Source: Chloroflexota bacterium (GTDB lineage: Bacteria > Chloroflexota > Dormibacteria > Dormibacterales > Dormibacteraceae). From it: a stretch of 46,593 nucleotides of DNA. The translations under genes and the position numbers were made by a program. This document shows, in pieces, positions 2,144 through 39,880 of this stretch (the stretch's first letter is position 1; every line of letters starts with the position of its first letter). The stretch covers positions 1-46,593 of the forward strand of contig VBDR01000057.1 of NCBI GenBank assembly GCA_005882135.1, given 5' to 3'. The notes below the pieces were generated by a model. The model searched no databases, was not told where the DNA came from, and saw only the letters and a program-made list of their open reading frames with translations.

Positions 2144-3602
2144 CCGACGCCACCTCAGCTCTCATCTCGCTTGCCGCTTCGTATGCGCGAGCCACCCGCA
2201 GCACGACGCTCTCGCCCCACTGCGGCCCGAGCACCTGGAGACCAACCGGCAGCCCCTCCGACGTGCCGCACGGAACACTGATCCCCGGCAAACCCGCCAG
2301 GTTGCCGCCGAGCGTGAGCACGTCGCACAGGTACATGGAGAGCGGATCCTGCGTCTTGGCGCCGATCGGAAACGCGACCGTCGGCGAGGTGGCGCTCACG
2401 ATCGCGTCGCACTTCTTGAACGCGTCGTCGAAGTCGCGCTTGATCAATGTGCGCACCTTCTGCGCCTTGAGGTAGTAGGCGTCGTAGTAACCGCTCGACA
2501 GCGCGTATGTGCCGAGCATCACGCGACGCCGGACCTCGGTTCCGAATCCCTTGCGGCGAGTCTGCAGGTACTCGTCGGTGATGTTGGGCGCGTCGACCTC
2601 TGAGAGCCCGTACCGCACACCATCGAACCGGGCGAGGTTCGATGAGCATTCCGCCGGCGCGATGATGTAGTAAGCGGCGAGCCCGTAGTCCGTGTGCGGG
2701 AGTGAGATGTCGACGATCTCGGCCCCCTCCCTGCGCAGGATGAACAGCGCCGCATCGATCGCCGCCTTGACGCCGGGCTCGATTCCCTTGACGTCGTAGT
2801 ACTCGCGCGGGACGCCAAGCCGCATGCCCTTGACGCCGCCTTCTGAGTTGTTCAGCACCTCCATGCCCGGACGGTCCGACGACGTCGCGTCCAGGGGGTC
2901 GTAGCCGCTCATCAGGGCCAGCGTGATCGCCGCGTCATCGACGCTGCGTGCGAACGGGCCGACCTGGTCGAGGCTGGAGGCGAACGCGATCAGCCCGTAA
3001 CGGCTGACGCGGCCGTACGTCGGCTTCATGCCGACCACCCCGCACAGCGCGGCCGGCTGGCGGATCGATCCGCCGGTGTCTGTGCCGAGCGCGATCATCG
3101 CCTCGCCCGCGGCGACCGCAGCCGCGCTGCCTCCGGAGCTGCCGCCGGGCACGCGCTCCAGGTCCCACGGGTTGCGGGTCGGGAAGTAACCCGAGTTCTC
3201 TGTCGAGCTGCCCATGGCAAACTCGTCGCAGTTCGTCACCCCGAGCATCACCGCGCCTGCCTCGAACAGGCGACCCACCGCGGTCCCGGTGTACGGCGGC
3301 CGGAAGCCCTTGAGGATCTGCGAACCCGCGGTTGTCTCCACCCCGCGCACGCAGAGGACGTCCTTGACGGCGAGCGGAATGCCCGCGAGAGGCGGCGCGT
3401 CTCCCTGGCGGATCTTGCGATCCGCCTCGTCCGCCTGCTTCTCCCAGAGCTCGGGCGTGAAGCGCAGGTATGCCTTGACATGCGGGTCGACGCGTTCGAT
3501 CCGCTCGACGTGAGCGGCCACCAGGTCGGCGGCGGAGATCGTGCCCAGCCGGAGCAGGCGGGACGCGTCCTTGATCGTCAGTGCGGTGAGGTCGTCACTC
3601 AT
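2136..3602 (-). CDS. gatA: Asp-tRNA(Asn)/Glu-tRNA(Gln) amidotransferase subunit A
   Basis: GatA is the amidase-signature glutaminase of the GatCAB complex; it releases ammonia from glutamine for transamidation on GatB. The catalytic Ser-cisSer-Lys triad is visible as Lys80 ([10 protein letters not shown]), cis-Ser155 ([16 protein letters not shown]) and the nucleophile Ser179 ([13 protein letters not shown]). The following [20 protein letters not shown] is typical of GatA rather than of general amidases. At 488 residues it has the usual length. The ATG at 3602 overlaps the gatC stop by 4 bases and its own end overlaps gatB, so translational coupling across gatC-gatA-gatB is likely. Confidence 0.97.
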
Positions 3603-3892
3603 GTCTCTTCCTGGATCGCGGGCACGCGGAAGAATCCGTCGACCGACGCCGGCGCGTTCGCGAGCGCTTCCTCCTGCGTCAGGCTGGGGCGCGGCTCGTC
3701 GTCGCGCAGCCTGCTCGCAATCTCCACCACCTGCGCGGTCGGTGGAATGTCGTCGGTGTCCACCTGCTGCAGACGGTCGATGTGCTCGAGGATGCCGCTC
3801 AGCTGATCGGCGTAGAAGTCCTCGTCGCCTGGCTCGAGGCCGAGGCGCGCGAGCATGGCGACATGGCGGACTTCGTCTTTCGAGAGCGGCAT
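3599..3892 (-). CDS. gatC: Asp-tRNA(Asn)/Glu-tRNA(Gln) amidotransferase subunit C
   Basis: A 97-residue GatC, the small subunit that wraps around GatA and GatB and stabilises the amidotransferase. The family pattern is clear: MPLSKDEVRHVAMLARLGL at the N-terminus, a helical stretch ending LSGILEHIDRLQQVDT, then a proline-rich extended tail with RDDEPRPSLTQEEALANAP and DGFFRVPAI. It begins at ATG 3892, 13 bases after the upstream membrane-protein gene, and overlaps gatA by 4 bases. Confidence 0.95.
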   Translation of the reverse strand: MPLSKDEVRHVAMLARLGLEPGDEDFYADQLSGILEHIDRLQQVDTDDIPPTAQVVEIASRLRDDEPRPSLTQEEALANAPASVDGFFRVPAIQEET

Positions 3893-3905
3893 GAGGCTTT
3901 GAAAG

Positions 3906-4223
3906 CTAGCTTAGTCGGCGGCTTGCGATGACTCCGACCAGGGCGGGCACGCCGGCGATCGCGCCCACGATGGTGAGGCTCATGAAAACCGACGCAACGA
4001 TCGCGATCCTCCACGCCCACTGCGTGCGCGCGACGAGGGCGCCCGCCGCGATCACCCCGAGGAGCCCAGCCGCGATGGAACCGGCGCCGATCAACAGCAG
4101 CGCGGCCCACACCCCGCCCACCGCCGAAGGCTCGGTGAGAAAACCGAGCACGTACCAGCCCCAGACGAAAAGGACGACGGCGCCCACGAGCAGCGTCCAC
4201 CACACCCACCTCGGGCTTCTCAC
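3906..4223 (-). CDS. Small membrane protein embedded in the ligA-gatCAB operon
   Basis: A 105-residue protein with three or so transmembrane segments: WWTLLVGAVVLFVWGWYVL near residues 8-27, WAALLLIGAGSIAAGLLGVIAAGALVA near 38-66, and IAIVASVFMSLTIVGAIAGVPALVGVIA near 73-101. There is no signal for catalysis or metal binding. Its GTG start at 4223 overlaps the ligA stop by 4 bases (GTGA), and gatC begins 13 bases after its end. It is therefore co-transcribed with DNA-ligase and tRNA-amidation genes, though no functional link is evident. Family not recognised. Confidence 0.75.
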   Translation of the reverse strand: MRSPRWVWWTLLVGAVVLFVWGWYVLGFLTEPSAVGGVWAALLLIGAGSIAAGLLGVIAAGALVARTQWAWRIAIVASVFMSLTIVGAIAGVPALVGVIASRRLS

Positions 4224-10520: not shown

Positions 10521-13500
10521 CTACCCCGGAGCGGCCGCCAACACCCCCGTCGTCACCTTGAAAGCGACCACCGGCGAATCAAATCCCTTCAGCGCCAGCT
10601 CCACCCTTTCGGCCTGCATCCGCTGCGCCTCGAGCCAGCCGCTGACGCGGCGGTACACCTCCTCGGTCAGCATCACCTCGCCGGCGCCGGCCTGTGCCTG
10701 CAGCCGCGAGGCCAGGTTGGTCACCTCGCCAAGCACGCTGACATTGGCCGACTCGGCGAGGTTGCCGACGACCGCAGGACCGACCGCCACGCCGGCGCCC
10801 ATAGGCAGCTCCGCGAGGGCGGCCTTGTCGATGATCGCGATCGCGGCGCGGAGCGCTTGCAGTGCGTGGTCGACGCTCTGCCCGGAGACGTTGAACGTCG
10901 CCATGACGGCGTCGCCGGCGAACTTGTCGACGATGCCGTGGCGGCGTTCGACCTCATGCGTCGCCCACCTCTGCAGCGAGGCGATCCTGTCGGCAAGCTC
11001 CGCCGGAGCCGTCTCGCCCGCAAGCCGAGAGTAGCCACGAACGTCGGCGAAGAGTATCGAGACCATGCGCTCTCCCGGTGCGACGCGGGTCGAGGGCACG
11101 CCTTCAGCCGGCCGTTCGCGAGCCGCCTCTATCTCCACACCCAGTCGGGACGCGGTCTCACGCGCGACGCGCGCGGCGAGGAGCGCCGACGCAGCCTGCG
11201 CGTCGGCAGCGATCCGCCGCAGCCGGTTCCTGGCCACGTCCGCCTGGCCGGAGCTAAATTCGGCATCGGCGAGCGCCGATCCGACATGCCAGGCATCCAG
11301 CTGGAAACTACCGGTCTCGAATGCGTCCACAGCGGAGCTCAGCGCCTGACATGCGTCGTCGAACCGTCCCTCGTAAAGAGCCAGGCGTCCTCGCGCGGCG
11401 GCGATACGTGGTGAGCCCAGAACCTCTCCCTGTGCCGGAATCTTGGCGATGAACTCGCGCAACCACTTGGCATCGCGTGTGCCTTCCGCCACGGCGTCGA
11501 GAGGCGAACCGTGCTCGCAGCCTTCGGGCCGAACCAGCCTCACCTCCCGCTCGGCTCCCGCAAAGTCGCCTGCCGCAAGGCAGCAGCGCACGCGCGGCAT
11601 CGCGTCGTAGGTGACATCCTGCTGATCGACGCGACTCGACACCGGCGGCATGAGGTTCGAAGCCTCGTCCGCGCGAAGGTTCTCTGCCAGCGCGTGGGCA
11701 AGAAGTACGTGTGCGCGCCAGGCCATCTTTTCGTGGCCGCCCTCGCGAGCCTTCTGGACTGCTGCCTGAGCAAACCGAATCGCCTCACCGATCTGGCCAC
11801 GCTCCAGCGCTATGAAGGCGCTGGCGTAGGTCGGCCAGGGTTCGAATCCGATCTGCGGCATGACCGAGATTCGCTCCTTCCATTTCGCGACCTCGTCCCC
11901 GCGGCCGAGATGCACGGCAAGCCAGATCGCGTTGTAGACGGCGTTTCCGACCTGGAAGTCATATCCCCCGGCCAGCGCGCCCTGGTAGCTCTGATCCAAG
12001 TGGGCGAAACCGGCGTCCACCTCACCCAGACCAACCTCGGAGAGTCCCAGGAAGTTCAGCGACCACACGCTCGGCAAGTTCGCGCCGGCGAGCTCGGCCG
12101 TCTTCGCCGCTTTCCGTGCGAACTCAATCGCTGTGCGGTGGTCCGCATTGAACGTCGATAGGCTGGCAATGCGGATGTACAAGTTGGCCAGCGCTTCGCT
12201 CGGACCGTTCGGTTCGAGCACTGCGCGTGCTTGCTCGAACTGCTCGCGGGCAAGGTCGCTCCGCATCAGCTCCCACAGCGACCGCCCGAGTGTGATCCGG
12301 TGAATCGCGCCTTCGACCGCGAAACCGGCTCTTTCAAGGCCTGGAATTGCCGCCTCGAGAAGGCGCCGGGCGCTCTGCGACTCGGCGTTGTAGTGATACG
12401 CCTCGCCGGCGCGACACAGCATGCGCGCGCGCTCGGCCTCGTCTGAGACATAAGGTGCGGCGCGCTCGAGCAGCTCGGCGGCGTCGCGATAGGCGCGGCC
12501 CTGCAGGGCACTGTCTGCAGCCGCGATCGACATCGCGACGGCGTCTTGATTCCTACCGGCCATGAACAGTTGGTTCGCCTGGTCGACCGGCTCGCGGTCG
12601 TGCCTCGAGTCCATGACGTCGGCCAAGCGCGAGTGCAATCGCTGCCGGCGGGGCGCGACAAGGTCTTCATAAATTGCCTCACGCGTGAGCGCGTGCCGGA
12701 ACCGATAGCCCCCCGAACGTCGGTCTTCCTCCTCTATCAACTGAGCCGCGACGCTGGCTTCGAGCGCCGACAGGACTGCGGTCCCGTCTACTTGTGCCAC
12801 CTCCGCGAGCGACTCGACATCAAACGACCGGCCCATCACCGACGCGGCAGAAAGTACGGCAACGTCTTCCCGGCTCAGCCGTTCCAGGCGCTGAAGGATT
12901 GTGTCGCGAACGTTGGGCGGGATGCGGATCTCGGCCACGGCCTTGCGATCCCACCCCGTCTCCGTGCGGAAGACGTCACCGCGGTCGATCGCGTCGCGAA
13001 GCATTTCTTCGAGCACGAACGGATTGCCCTCGCTGCGCTCATGCAGGAAGTCTCGGAACTCGTCGCTGATCGAGCGCTCCTCGAAGATCGCGCACACCAT
13101 GGAGGCGACCTGTTGCGGGGTCAAAGGACGCAGGTCGACGAGCTCGACCTGACCGCTGCGCCTCCACCCTTGAATGGTCGGCAGCAGCGCGTGCTTGCGG
13201 TGCATCTCGTCGGTGCGGTAGGTGGCGACGATCAAGACGTTTGTCGAGCGCAGACGGCGGGTCGCGTAGTCCAGCAGCTCACGCGTCGCCGGGTCGGCCC
13301 ACTGCAAGTCTTCGAGGATGACGAGCAGCGCCCGGTGGCCGGCGGCGTCACGAAGCAGAATCAGGATCGACTCGAAGAGCCGCAGCTTCGCCTGGACCGA
13401 GTCGGTGGACGATCCGGACGGAGCGCCGAGTTGGGGGAACAGCTGCGCCAGCTCGCCCGCCGCTGGACCAAGGCGCTGACCGAGGTCGCCCGCGTCAGCG

Positions 13501-13772
13501 GTCGTGAGGTAGTTGCCGATTGCCTCGAGGAACGGCAGGTAGGGCAGGGACAGCTCCGCCTCGCTGCAGCCGCCGGCGACCACGACGCAACCTAGCGTCC
13601 GCGCCCGGCTCGCAAGGGTGTTGACGAGACGCGTCTTCCCCATCCCGGCCTCGCCGCCGACGATCACGACTCCGCCGTCGCCGCGGAGCGCGGAGAGCAG
13701 GGCATCCTCCAGTGTCGACAGCTCGGAGTCGCGGCCGATCAGGGTGGGGCAAAGGACGCGAGAAAGCACCAT
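10521..13772 (-). CDS. AAA/STAND ATPase - TPR - class III nucleotidyl cyclase fusion
   Basis: A 1083-residue cytoplasmic regulator. The N-terminal AAA_16-type ATPase has Walker A GGEAGMGKTR (39-48) and Walker B LLVILEDLQWAD (about 158-170). A long helical region with TPR-like Ala-rich repeats follows (about 400-850). The C-terminal cyclase domain starts near 903: metal Asp910 (LFADVRGYS) and Asp954 (FAGDAVM), Lys950, and the transition-state pair Asn1019/Arg1023 (EVTNLASRL), so it should be catalytically competent. Ser replaces the usual Asp/Thr base-contact residue. Many soil bacteria have this architecture; what it senses is unknown. ATG 13772 directly follows the plsC-like stop, so the two genes are probably one transcript. 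Confidence 0.9.
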   Translation of the reverse strand: MVLSRVLCPTLIGRDSELSTLEDALLSALRGDGGVVIVGGEAGMGKTRLVNTLASRARTLGCVVVAGGCSEAELSLPYLPFLEAIGNYLTTADAGDLGQRLGPAAGELAQLFPQLGAPSGSSTDSVQAKLRLFESILILLRDAAGHRALLVILEDLQWADPATRELLDYATRRLRSTNVLIVATYRTDEMHRKHALLPTIQGWRRSGQVELVDLRPLTPQQVASMVCAIFEERSISDEFRDFLHERSEGNPFVLEEMLRDAIDRGDVFRTETGWDRKAVAEIRIPPNVRDTILQRLERLSREDVAVLSAASVMGRSFDVESLAEVAQVDGTAVLSALEASVAAQLIEEEDRRSGGYRFRHALTREAIYEDLVAPRRQRLHSRLADVMDSRHDREPVDQANQLFMAGRNQDAVAMSIAAADSALQGRAYRDAAELLERAAPYVSDEAERARMLCRAGEAYHYNAESQSARRLLEAAIPGLERAGFAVEGAIHRITLGRSLWELMRSDLAREQFEQARAVLEPNGPSEALANLYIRIASLSTFNADHRTAIEFARKAAKTAELAGANLPSVWSLNFLGLSEVGLGEVDAGFAHLDQSYQGALAGGYDFQVGNAVYNAIWLAVHLGRGDEVAKWKERISVMPQIGFEPWPTYASAFIALERGQIGEAIRFAQAAVQKAREGGHEKMAWRAHVLLAHALAENLRADEASNLMPPVSSRVDQQDVTYDAMPRVRCCLAAGDFAGAEREVRLVRPEGCEHGSPLDAVAEGTRDAKWLREFIAKIPAQGEVLGSPRIAAARGRLALYEGRFDDACQALSSAVDAFETGSFQLDAWHVGSALADAEFSSGQADVARNRLRRIAADAQAASALLAARVARETASRLGVEIEAARERPAEGVPSTRVAPGERMVSILFADVRGYSRLAGETAPAELADRIASLQRWATHEVERRHGIVDKFAGDAVMATFNVSGQSVDHALQALRAAIAIIDKAALAELPMGAGVAVGPAVVGNLAESANVSVLGEVTNLASRLQAQAGAGEVMLTEEVYRRVSGWLEAQRMQAERVELALKGFDSPVVAFKVTTGVLAAAPG

Positions 13773-34960: not shown

Positions 34961-36567
34961 TTACAAACGCGGTCGGTGACGCTCGATCACCAATTTGAGT
35001 TCCGGGCCGCCGTTGAGGGTGCCGAACGTATGTCCCCACTCGCGATCGAGGCGCGAATTCACGAACAGTTCGGCCACCGCTGGTTCGCCATGGCGCAGCA
35101 ACAGGGACGCTTGAAGGGTGAGGGCCATCAACTCGACGATACGCCGGACGCGTGACTCGCCGTCGTTTGAGTTCGCCAGCTCGCGCTTCAAATCGTCGAT
35201 CGCCCGATCGAAGCGGGGATGCGCACCGCGCGCCAGCTCCACCTCTTCCAGGTAGGCGGCGAGGGATTCGGGCTCGCGCTGCATGGCGCGCAGCACGTCG
35301 AGCGCGTTGACGTTCCCCGAGCCTTCCCAGATCGAGTTGAGCGGCGCCTCGCGGTAGAGGCGCGGCAGGATCGACTCCTCGACATAGCCATTGCCGCCAT
35401 GGCACTCGAGGGCCTCGGCCACGAGCGCGATCGCGCGCTTGCACGTCCAGAACTTCGCGATGGCGACGCCGATGCGCCGAAAATGCGCCTCCGCCGGATC
35501 GGCCGCACGGTCGAACGCGCCGGCCAGACGCATCATCAGGATCGTCGTCGCTTCGGACTCGACCGCGAGGTCCGCGAGGACATTCACCATCAGCGGCTGC
35601 TCGCTGAGCATTTTGCCGAACGCGCTGCGGTGCGCCGTGTGATGCGTCGCCTGCGCGACCGCCTGCCGCATGAGTGACGCCGACCCGATGACGCAGTCGA
35701 GGCGGGTGTGGTTGACCATCTCGATGATGGTGCGCACGCCTCTCCCCTCCTCCCCGACCATCACCGCCCACGCGCCATCGAGCGCGATCTCCGACGAAGC
35801 ATTCGAACGGTTGCCGAGCTTGTCCTTGAGACGCTCGATGTGAAACGCGTTGCGCGTGCCGTCAGGCAAGACGCGAGGCAGCAGGAAACATGAGAGTCCG
35901 CCCGGCGCCTGGGCCAGGACGAGAAACGCGTCGCACATGGGCGCCGAGCAAAACCACTTGTGGCCCGTGAGCAGGTGCTCGCCGTTGGCGCCGGCGGACA
36001 CCGCTCGCGTGGTGTTGGCCCGGACATCGGAGCCGCCCTGCCGCTCGGTCATCGCCATGCCGAAGAGCACGCCCTTCTTGTTCGAATGGTGCCGCAGGCC
36101 CGGGTCGTAGTCGAGGCTGGTCATGAGCGGCTCCCACTCCGCCGCGAGCGCGGGCGACTTGCGCAGAGCCGGCACCGCCGCGTAGGTCATCGAGACCGGA
36201 CAGCCGTGGCCGCCCTCGACCTGCGACCAGACGTAGAACGCGGCGGCGCGGGCCGCGTGCGCGCCAGGGCGCGATTCGCGCCACGGCAATGCGTGCAGGC
36301 CGTGACCGATCGCGACCTTCATCAGCTCGTGCCACGCGGGATGAAACTCGACCTCATCGATGCGCTCGCCGAACCGGTCGTGTGTGCGCAGGCGCGGTGG
36401 GTTGGCGTTGGCCTGGAAGCCCCAGTCGATGGCCTGCTGCGTGCCGGCGAGCTCGCCCAGCTGGTGCACGAGGCCGTGTGCCCATGAGGCACCCTCACGC
36501 TCCAGCGACTCGCGCAACGGCGCGTCGGCCTCGAACAGGTTGTAGTCGACGAGCGGCGGCGGCTCGT

Positions 36568-36571
<4 letters not shown>
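34961..36571 (-). CDS. aidB: AidB-like acyl-CoA dehydrogenase family flavoprotein
   Basis: A 536-residue protein matching E. coli AidB, an FAD protein of the acyl-CoA dehydrogenase fold that protects DNA during the adaptive response to alkylation. Matching stretches are NANPPRLRTHDRFGERIDEV, EFHPAWHELM, GCPVSMTYAAVPALRK, GMAMTERQGGSDVRANTTRA, GHKWFCSAPMCDAFLVLAQ and ECHGGNGYVEESILPRLYRE. The C-terminal domain that follows the dehydrogenase core in AidB is also present. The start overlaps the oxidoreductase gene by 4 bases and otsB follows within 10 bases, so it sits mid-operon. Confidence 0.92.
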
Positions 36572-37636: not shown

Positions 37637-37861
37637 ATGCCGGTGGGTTGGAATCTGTCGTCGATCCTGCTGGGAGTCGTCATCGCCACGGGCGTCCTCT
37701 CGATCCTCATGGCGCTGGTCGCGGGCCGGAAGGCACGGGCCCAGCTTCGCGCTCACCTGCCGGCATCGCCCTTACAGATCCTCGATCAGCGCCTGGCGTC
37801 CGGCGAGATCTCGGTTGAGGAATATCGGTACGAACGCTACGTGCTGGAGAAAGGCGAGTAG
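37637..37861 (+). CDS. Small membrane protein with SHOCT domain
   Basis: A 74-residue protein with one N-terminal membrane span (LSSILLGVVIATGVLSILMALVA) and a C-terminal SHOCT-type motif (LQILDQRLASGEISVEEYRY), a short helical oligomerisation element often attached to membrane anchors. ATG 37637 lies 9 nt after TATCCT, a good leaderless -10. The stop abuts the end of the converging Nramp gene. Confidence 0.85.
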   Translation: MPVGWNLSSILLGVVIATGVLSILMALVAGRKARAQLRAHLPASPLQILDQRLASGEISVEEYRYERYVLEKGE

Positions 37862-39110
37862 CTACGACGCCTTGAAGATGGTCTGGTACAGAAGAAAGAC
37901 GTTCAGGGTGATGATCAGCGCCGCGACCCCGTAGGCGGCGAAGTTCGTCCACCGGCTGTTCACCAGGGTGCCCATCAACTTCCTGTTGCGCGTGAACATG
38001 ACCAGCGGGATCATCGCGAACGGGATGCCGAAGGAGAGGAAGACCTGGCTCAGCACCAGGGCTCGCGAGGGGTCGAAGTGGATGCCGATCACGATCAGCC
38101 ACGGACGACGACGAGATGCCCGACGCAAGCAGGGCGATGCCAAAGATGACGCCGCTGTGGGCGCCCAGGTAATGTTCCAGGCCGTTGTAGACCTGGCCGA
38201 GGTCGGTGCCGACGCCGAGCAAACCTCGCGAGTTGAAGACGGCGGCGGCCGTCGTGAGCATGGCCAGGTTGATGAGGCCGGCGATGCCCATCGCGATCAC
38301 GACGTCCACCATCTCGAAGTGAAAGATCTTTCGCCTTGCCTCCTGGTTCGCGCCGACGATCCGCTTCTGGGTCAGCGCCGAGTGCAGGTAGATCACGTGC
38401 GGCATCACCGTGGCGCCCAGGATGCCCGCGGCGAGCAGGACGGACTCGCTGCCATCCAGGTGCGGGACGAAGGCGTTGCCCGCCACCGAGCTCCATGAAG
38501 GATCGGCCCTGAAGACCTCGAGGCCGAACGCCGCCACGATCAGGCCCACCAGGCCGGTGATCGTCGCCTCGAGCCGCCGGAAGCCAGAGGCCTGGAGACC
38601 GAGGATGACGAAGGCGGCGACGCCGGTCAGCAGAGCCGCGATGAAAAGCGGCATGCCGAACAGGAGGTTCAGGCCCAGCGCGGCGCCGACGAACTCGGCG
38701 AGGTCGGTGGCCATCGCGATCAGCTCGGCCTGGACCCACAAGAAAAAGACGACGGGACGTGGGAAGCGATCGCGGCACACCTCGGGCAGGCTGCGCCCGG
38801 TGGCGATGCCGAGCTTGGCGCTCATCGACTGGATGAGCATCGCCATCAGGTTGGCCGCGAGCACGACCCACAGGAGCATGTAGCCGAAGCGAGAACCGCC
38901 GGCCATGTTGGTCGCGAAGTTGCCCGGGTCGACGTAGGCGACCGCGGCGATGAAGGCGGGTCCGAGAAAGGGCATAACCGCCCGGAGGCCACGGCGCTCC
39001 CCGTTGAGTGATCGCTCGGCCGCGCGCAGAACCCGGAGCTCGCCGGGTAGCGCCTTCTCGGGGCCGATGACCATCGGCGGCGCCAGCACCGCCTTGACGA
39101 GCTGCGCCAT
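37862..39110 (-). pseudogene. mntH: Nramp-type Mn2+/Fe2+ transporter gene with internal deletion and frameshift
   Basis: The first part reads as a normal Nramp (FLGPAFIAAVAYVDPGNFATN with the DPGN motif, LGATVMPHVIYLHSALTQKR with the MPH motif) until IALLASGISSSSV near 38100. The next base then resumes in another frame at LIVIGIHFDPSRALVLSQ and continues to ALNVFLLYQ-like ending ITLNVFLLYQTIFKAS. Compared with E. coli MntH, about 30 residues are missing at the junction, including the conserved GQVVMxGF segment, and the phase is wrong. In the first frame translation would run on as a scrambled tail to 37707. A genuine disruption or an assembly error must be separated by reads. The ATG at 39110 directly follows the mntR-like stop (TAAATG). 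Confidence 0.9.
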
Positions 39111-39815
39111 TTAGTTGATGTGCTGCGGCGTGGGCGGCGCCTCGGCGACGAAGATGGCCCGAGCCAGACCGAGCGGGACGCTCTCCCGGCGGCCTTTGAT
39201 CCTGACCTCGATCGGACCCTCGAACTCGCTGCCCGCGACCACGGCGATGCGGGTGCCGGGCATCAGGCCGCGGCGCTCGAGCTCACGCAGCTTTTGCGGA
39301 TCATCGTCGGAGACGCCCTGGACCACGAGCTTTTCGCCCGCCCGGCTCTCGCCCAGCGAGCGGTGGCTCACCGGCCGGACCTTGCCGGCGAGGGTCGGGA
39401 TGACGTGTCCATGCGGATCGAGCCGTGGACGGCCGAGGAGGTCGAAGATGCGCTGCTCCATGCGCTCGGAGATCACGTGCTCGAGGCGTTCGGCCTCGTC
39501 GTGGACTTCGTCCCAGCGGTAGCCCAGGACCTGGACCAGGAACATCTCCAGCAGCCGGTGGTGGCGGACCAGCTCGAGGGCGATCTTGCGGCCCTCGCGC
39601 GTTAGCTGCTGCCCGCGGTAGCGGTCATGCTCGACCAGGCCCTGCGCCGAGAGGCGGGTGACCATCTCGCTCACGCTCGGCGACGAGATCCCCAGGCGCT
39701 GAGCGAGGTCGCGGGTCGGCACCGGACGCTCATCGCCGCCGAGCAGGTACAGCGCTTTCAGATAGTCCTGCTGGGCTCGGGTGAACACGCCGCGGCGCTC
39801 TAGCTGCTCGACCAT
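39111..39815 (-). CDS. mntR: DtxR/MntR-family metal-dependent repressor
   Basis: A 234-residue iron- or manganese-responsive regulator. The winged helix is clear (QQDYLKALYLLGGDERPVPT, LAQRLGISSPSVSEMVTRLS), the dimerisation domain with metal ligands follows (LVRHHRLLEMFLVQVLGY, DEAERLEHVISERMEQRI, with His/Glu ligands), and a C-terminal SH3/FeoA-like domain (about 165-225; GLMPGTRIAVVAGSEFEGP) is of the longer DtxR/IdeR kind. It is followed directly by mntH, so Mn is the more likely co-repressor; DtxR/IdeR-type iron control is the alternative. AT-rich inverted repeats upstream suggest autoregulation. Confidence 0.9.
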   Translation of the reverse strand: MVEQLERRGVFTRAQQDYLKALYLLGGDERPVPTRDLAQRLGISSPSVSEMVTRLSAQGLVEHDRYRGQQLTREGRKIALELVRHHRLLEMFLVQVLGYRWDEVHDEAERLEHVISERMEQRIFDLLGRPRLDPHGHVIPTLAGKVRPVSHRSLGESRAGEKLVVQGVSDDDPQKLRELERRGLMPGTRIAVVAGSEFEGPIEVRIKGRRESVPLGLARAIFVAEAPPTPQHIN

Positions 39816-39820
39816 TTCGC

Positions 39821-39880
39821 CTAGGTTTCCCTAATCCAGACTGCGGGCATGCCTATCATCAAAGATAGGATAACCTAACT
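39821..39880 (-). promoter_or_regulatory. Probable metal-repressor operator/promoter of the mntR-mntH operon
   Basis: This AT-rich patch contains the inverted repeat CCTATC-ATCAAA-GATAGG (39852-39869), an overlapping TTAGGTTATCCTA element (minus strand, about 39866-39878) and a TTAGGGAAACCTAG palindrome (39821-39834) next to the start codon. The TTAGG...CCTAA pattern resembles DtxR/IdeR-type boxes. TATCCT within it can serve as the -10. Autoregulation is inferred. Confidence 0.55.

Follow-up and report, generated by a model that had tools for sequence, protein, structure and literature searches.

Does a manganese transporter gene interrupted by a clean, out-of-frame gap in a draft genome reflect gene loss in the organism, or DNA that went missing during assembly? 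This question is raised by mntH in the window, i.e., the whole stretch of DNA analyzed here, which makes up one entire contig (C4, 46,593 bp) of an 85%-complete draft genome (2.71 Mb, 91 contigs) whose nearest relatives are soil metagenome-assembled genomes labeled Chloroflexi or Candidatus Dormiibacterota. mntH starts at 39110 of the minus strand, directly downstream of a DtxR/MntR-like regulator gene (39815-39111). The locus comprises the following features:

39866..39878, minus strand: operator-like box TTAGGTTATCCTA, present as TTAGGNTANCCTA in 16/16 relatives printed (by eye)
39822..39834, minus strand: operator-like box TTAGGGAAACCTA, TTAGG-N4-CCTA in 11/12 relatives whose printed stretch reaches it (by eye)
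39111..39815, minus strand: intact gene of the DtxR/MntR-like regulator (HTH, metal-binding and FeoA domains), adjoining mntH on its upstream side
38100..39110, minus strand: first part of mntH in its native frame, 337 codons, with the DPGN and MPH motifs
38098..38099, minus strand: junction at which 89 bases are absent relative to 16/16 aligned relatives
37862..38098, minus strand: last part of mntH, from LIVIGIHFDPS... to the stop, read in a native frame that differs from that of the first part
37707..39110, minus strand: present-state ORF of 467 aa, consisting of the 337 native codons and an out-of-frame tail

The original prediction placed a break in mntH near 38060-38140, with a second frame resuming behind it, and attributed it to a deletion of non-triplet length rather than a single-base error. 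Both points were borne out by comparison with mntH in related genomes, as all 16 aligned relatives (14 of the same genus and two of the same family) have 89 more bases (30 codons minus one base) at 38098/38099, and whole-gene alignments with same-genus relatives gave an equal difference (e.g., 1229 vs. 1318 bases). The native frame extends to ...SGISSSSV (codons TCG TCG TCG TCC GTG), with the last base of V337 at 38100; it is followed by the single base 38099, after which the downstream native frame runs from 38098 (LIVIGIHFDPSRALV) to a stop at 37862 on the minus strand. Since 89 is not a multiple of 3, the second half of mntH is out of frame. A codon-phase HMM based on codon usage, which is blind to in-frame deletions, was run over the whole window and switched frame at 38098/38099, matching the alignment break; its remaining same-strand switches lie at ORF start/stop boundaries, leaving this as the only in-gene switch of the window.

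No direct repeat longer than ~2-3 bases was seen to frame the junction, as judged by eye on the alignments with the relatives, which stand in for the strain's own lost sequence, and the repeats present in the window around the junction are short and do not frame it. A search of the genome with an intact relative's MntH as query yielded the two C4 pieces and two NRMT-like genes, and neither a second copy nor the missing piece. The last part of mntH is also contained in a downstream 93-aa ORF that starts with TTG. In addition, a SHOCT-like small gene (37637-37861, plus strand; Pfam score slightly below the cut-off) ends one base short of the mntH stop, and is overlapped by the out-of-frame tail of the broken mntH ORF.

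The missing codons carry GQVVMQGF in the relatives, in agreement with the earlier expectation that about 30 codons including a GQVVMxGF motif had been lost. One frame matches positions 1-273 of the Pfam Nramp profile and the other positions 296-357, so that no single frame of the window mntH holds the whole Nramp fold, and the gene scores 417.3 bits against NF001923 (cut-off 430), compared to 562.2 bits for an intact relative (L036). It keeps the TM1 DPGN (VAYVDPGNFATN) and the TM6 MPH (GATVMPHVIYLHS), metal-site motifs of MntH/Nramp (PF01566, NF001923), the role of whose residues is treated in passages of PMC10185341 and PMC8806188. The intact relative L036 aligns with DraNramp of Deinococcus radiodurans (PDB 8E5S, 8E6H, 6C3I, 5KTE; L036 query residues 39-442, E 1.1e-131), and its match to chain 8E6H was used for mapping, with an offset of 9 that was checked on Asp56 and Met230 in the numbering given in a passage of PMC10185341. 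By this mapping, the equivalent of DraNramp residues about 331-360 is absent from the window mntH. According to the same source passage, TM10 starts at Asp369, and Gln378 of TM10 belongs to the metal-site network; the equivalents of both residues are downstream of the gap and out of frame. With its C-terminal helices absent, the window mntH is predicted to lose Mn2+/Fe2+ transport.

Differences were counted on each side of the gap against nine intact relatives. Pairwise omega of the window mntH was 0.09-0.17 upstream and 0.11-0.29 downstream, compared with 0.08-0.15 and 0.10-0.28 respectively among the relatives themselves (L037 vs. the other eight). When three-way distances were taken between the window, L036 and L037, less amino-acid change fell to the window alone than to either relative, upstream and downstream of the gap alike. 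The flanks on both sides of the gap are thus under constraint, with no excess amino-acid change or decay on either side relative to the nine intact relatives, as had been proposed from the sequence alone, and the gap is therefore either very young or not real. The choice initially offered, between a recent loss and a segment dropped by the assembly, holds.

The gene next to mntH had been described as an intact MntR-type regulator. It is intact and MntR-like, with matches above the cut-offs to Fe_dep_repress HTH (63.4 bits, cut-off 26) and Fe_dep_repr_C (104.5 bits, cut-off 27); a manganese-specific identity is not established, since its best subfamily model, MntR of Thermus (NF047407), gave 207.3 bits against a cut-off of 350, and DtxR (NF053665) gave 117.4 bits against a cut-off of 290. 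5ZR4, 8PVT and ScaR are among the solved chains closest to it. DR2539 of D. radiodurans is a Mn- and Fe-dependent repressor of mntH, according to PMC3327659. Similar to members of this DtxR/MntR family (the Thermus MntR model NF047407 and DR2539), the window regulator has HTH, metal-binding/dimerization and FeoA domains, lies directly upstream of mntH, and has two TTAGG-N4-CCTA boxes before its own start, differing in that it reaches 207 of the 350 bits set for NF047407. The two palindromic boxes upstream of the regulator start in the window DNA compare with 0 in 100 shuffles. The stricter exact pattern TTAGGNTANCCTA occurs a single time in the genome, before the regulator, and no further regulator targets were found with this exact pattern across the genome. 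The regulator therefore looks self-regulating and local.

A search for a second Nramp or Mn ABC system, as suggested with the original prediction, gave a mixed answer, i.e., two further Nramp genes (G000:C48 and G000:C49) and one ZnuA-type ABC system were found, but both Nramp proteins are NRMT-like and lack the MPH methionine. Their nearest solved relative is EleNRMT (7QIA; E 3.9e-67 and 4.5e-55 respectively), whereas the best MntH-named chains reach E 4.7e-19 and 1.9e-14. The MPH position reads TPY in C48 and APW in C49, and the DPGN position DPSG and DAGG. In EleNRMT, a magnesium transporter, the metal-site Met and Asn are replaced by Ala and Gly, as described in a passage of PMC8806188; C48 and C49 likewise have both residues replaced, with Thr instead of Ala standing for Met in C48. 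The two genes thus resemble the NRMT (Mg2+) branch, and are putative Mg2+ transporters. On G000:C49 (L197), two genes lie at 1216-2940 and 2870-4207: the NRMT-like gene, which has a long C-terminal extension, overlaps the end of its upstream gene, which resembles MgtE/CBS-type proteins (by eye), and the two are perhaps a magnesium transport pair. This leaves mntH as the only Mn/Fe-type Nramp found in the 85%-complete draft genome, and its loss would therefore probably cost something. The ZnuA-type binding protein (G000:C2:28984-29760) adjoins an ABC ATPase and a divergent Fur-family gene. The models that fit it best are MntC of Deinococcus (Mn; 61.7 bits, cut-off 400) and AztC (Zn; 61.2 bits, cut-off 350), scores so far below the cut-offs that they speak neither for nor against a Mn role.

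Among 31 mntH copies of the family compared at the DNA level (30 loci plus G031, with a second copy in G035 (C83) left out), four have in-contig frame-breaking gaps, of 89 bp in the window genome (G000), 124 bp in G001, 19 bp in G024 and 152 bp in G031. The gaps differ in size and position, and none of the relatives among these 31 copies has a conserved break at the position of the window's gap. Outside the family, mntH has a frame change in L094 and one stop each in L051 and L092. Other Nramp genes have a frame-breaking gap in G048:C151 and likely one in G021:C105 (a weak match), and the Nramp gene of G017:C135 is shorter, yet in one frame. Six control genes of the same family were broken in 2 of ~129 copies, with denominators counted by hand from tables:

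rpoB: 1/20 broken
gyrA: 0/23 broken
secY: 1/22 broken
amt: 0/21 broken
AidB-like gene: 0/25 broken
regulator: 0/18 broken (search over 55/114 loci)

The difference between 4/31 and 2/~129 (Fisher p = 0.013; p = 0.047 without the window, which was left out of the second test since it was chosen for its gap) indicates that mntH is somewhat enriched in gaps, which speaks for biology. Adding control copies from outside the family gave smaller p values, and we relied on the family-only test. A large part of the control copies is partial. For these, 20 contigs were inspected and the further partial copies were judged from tables; 18 of the 20 hold a partial match, and the partial matches on these 18 contigs all end at the contig end or at most ~40 bases away, with the exception of the amt of G017, which lacks the first 24 residues. 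The excess of mntH gaps is weakened by breaks that fall outside the six-gene count, i.e., a split gene of unknown function beside the operon in G005, and amt splits in the non-family genomes G046 and G049. In the window genome, no second break was found in rpoB, gyrA, secY, amt or the rest of the window.

The two broken controls bear directly on the origin of such gaps. In secY of G008 (L214, G008:C42:25000-27500), 136 bp are missing, out of frame, inside a 35-kb contig, and rpoB of G006 (L202, G006:C129:6800-11800) falls into two parts in different frames, with a stretch between them that matches poorly and a net loss of ~14 bp. SecY and RpoB are essential, and comparable gaps in these drafts thus very probably arise without gene loss. 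A weak second SecY-like match (38 bits) is present in G008, as in some relatives, which makes loss of SecY there very unlikely rather than impossible; its secY gap can serve as a positive control for assembly gaps. Many relatives have scaffold names that presumably follow the sample style of a grassland soil study. Its samples were assembled with IDBA-UD, or for some samples with MEGAHIT and the IDBA-UD scaffolder, and scaffolding errors were corrected, according to a passage of PMC6784897. Spurious pseudogenes are an assembly artefact described in a passage of PMC11017572; mntH resembles the cases given there in that a draft-genome gene under constraint is broken just once, and in that essential genes in sister genomes are gapped in a similar way, and differs from them in the size of its gap (89 bp vs. 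a one-base slip). DNA blocks identical between species were considered as a cause and are not supported, as the four mntH gaps tested fall in such stretches no more often than expected by chance placement.

Taken together, we consider the 89-base gap to be probably an assembly dropout, with some reservation, and favor this reading over a very recent deletion. The organism would then carry an ordinary intact regulator-mntH operon, the 89 bases would have been dropped in metagenome assembly or scaffolding or would belong to a minority variant, and the window would display a false pseudogene whose gap may share its technical origin with the gaps in the sister genomes. This reading is favored because essential secY (G008) and rpoB (G006) of the same genus have in-contig frame-breaking gaps, because there is no excess amino-acid change beside the gap, because the regulator and the operator boxes are intact and conserved, and because mntH is the sole Mn/Fe-type Nramp found. 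Real deletions of ~89-bp size commonly use a direct repeat, and the lack of one framing the junction also favors a dropout. A purely random artefact would, however, not favor one gene, and the excess of mntH gaps over the controls, their lack of preference for interspecies-identical stretches, and the absence of a second break in rpoB, gyrA, secY and amt of this genome and in the rest of the window all count against a dropout. The lack of another in-gene break in the window, together with the Fisher tests, the variation of the four gaps in size and place (as independent events would give) and the single genomic occurrence of the exact box before the regulator, is consistent with a real and very recent 89-bp deletion in the strain or the sample's dominant strain, which would leave a dead transporter without TM9 onwards and a regulator that binds its own promoter and has little else to control. 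We regard such a deletion as possible but the less probable account, as constraint is not relaxed on either gap side, the junction has no framing repeat, essential genes of sister genomes have gaps of this kind too, and no other Mn/Fe-type Nramp was found as a replacement, though the ZnuA-type ABC system is present. The proposal of a strain with a dead transporter under a manganese repressor is accordingly not established, given the sister secY and rpoB. If the deletion is real, the sole Mn/Fe-type Nramp found in the strain's draft genome would have been lost while the regulator was kept, and the surplus of mntH gaps across the family would merit examination at read level.

Read as biology across the family, the four gaps might mean that mntH is repeatedly lost in these soil bacteria, with independent, fresh and differently placed deletions in 4 of 31 species and the regulator intact, which we consider unlikely; it is similarly unlikely that, as part of such repeated loss, mntH behaves as if under fluctuating selection, with the regulator kept for another task. 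Continued use of mntH, either by recoding or by pairing the product of the 467-aa ORF with that of the downstream 93-aa ORF as a split protein, would agree with the codon usage and constraint retained by both pieces and with the TTG start of the latter. It is nevertheless highly improbable, since ~30 residues (DraNramp 331-360) are wholly absent, so that a ribosomal frame change alone cannot rebuild the fold, and the break is not conserved at this position among the 31 family copies. The assembly dropout that we favor carries a caution, i.e., that a clean and isolated out-of-frame gap in a metagenome draft should not be taken as gene loss when secY and rpoB of sister genomes are gapped alike. 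Whichever explanation applies, none of the gene family, the operon and the lesion is of a new kind; among the literature titles listed on mntH pseudogenes or frameshifts and on manganese or MntH in Dormibacterota, none reported the present case.

Two minor observations concern sequences outside mntH. Contigs of five genomes of the same genus (G001:C58, G005:C309, G007:C196, G009:C107 and G014:C194) end inside the AidB-like gene (the orthologue of window 34961-36571), and these ends may mark a hard-to-assemble stretch near mntH. Further away, positions 10521-13772 of the window encode a protein of 1083 aa that combines an AAA_16 domain with a C-terminal adenylate/guanylate cyclase domain.
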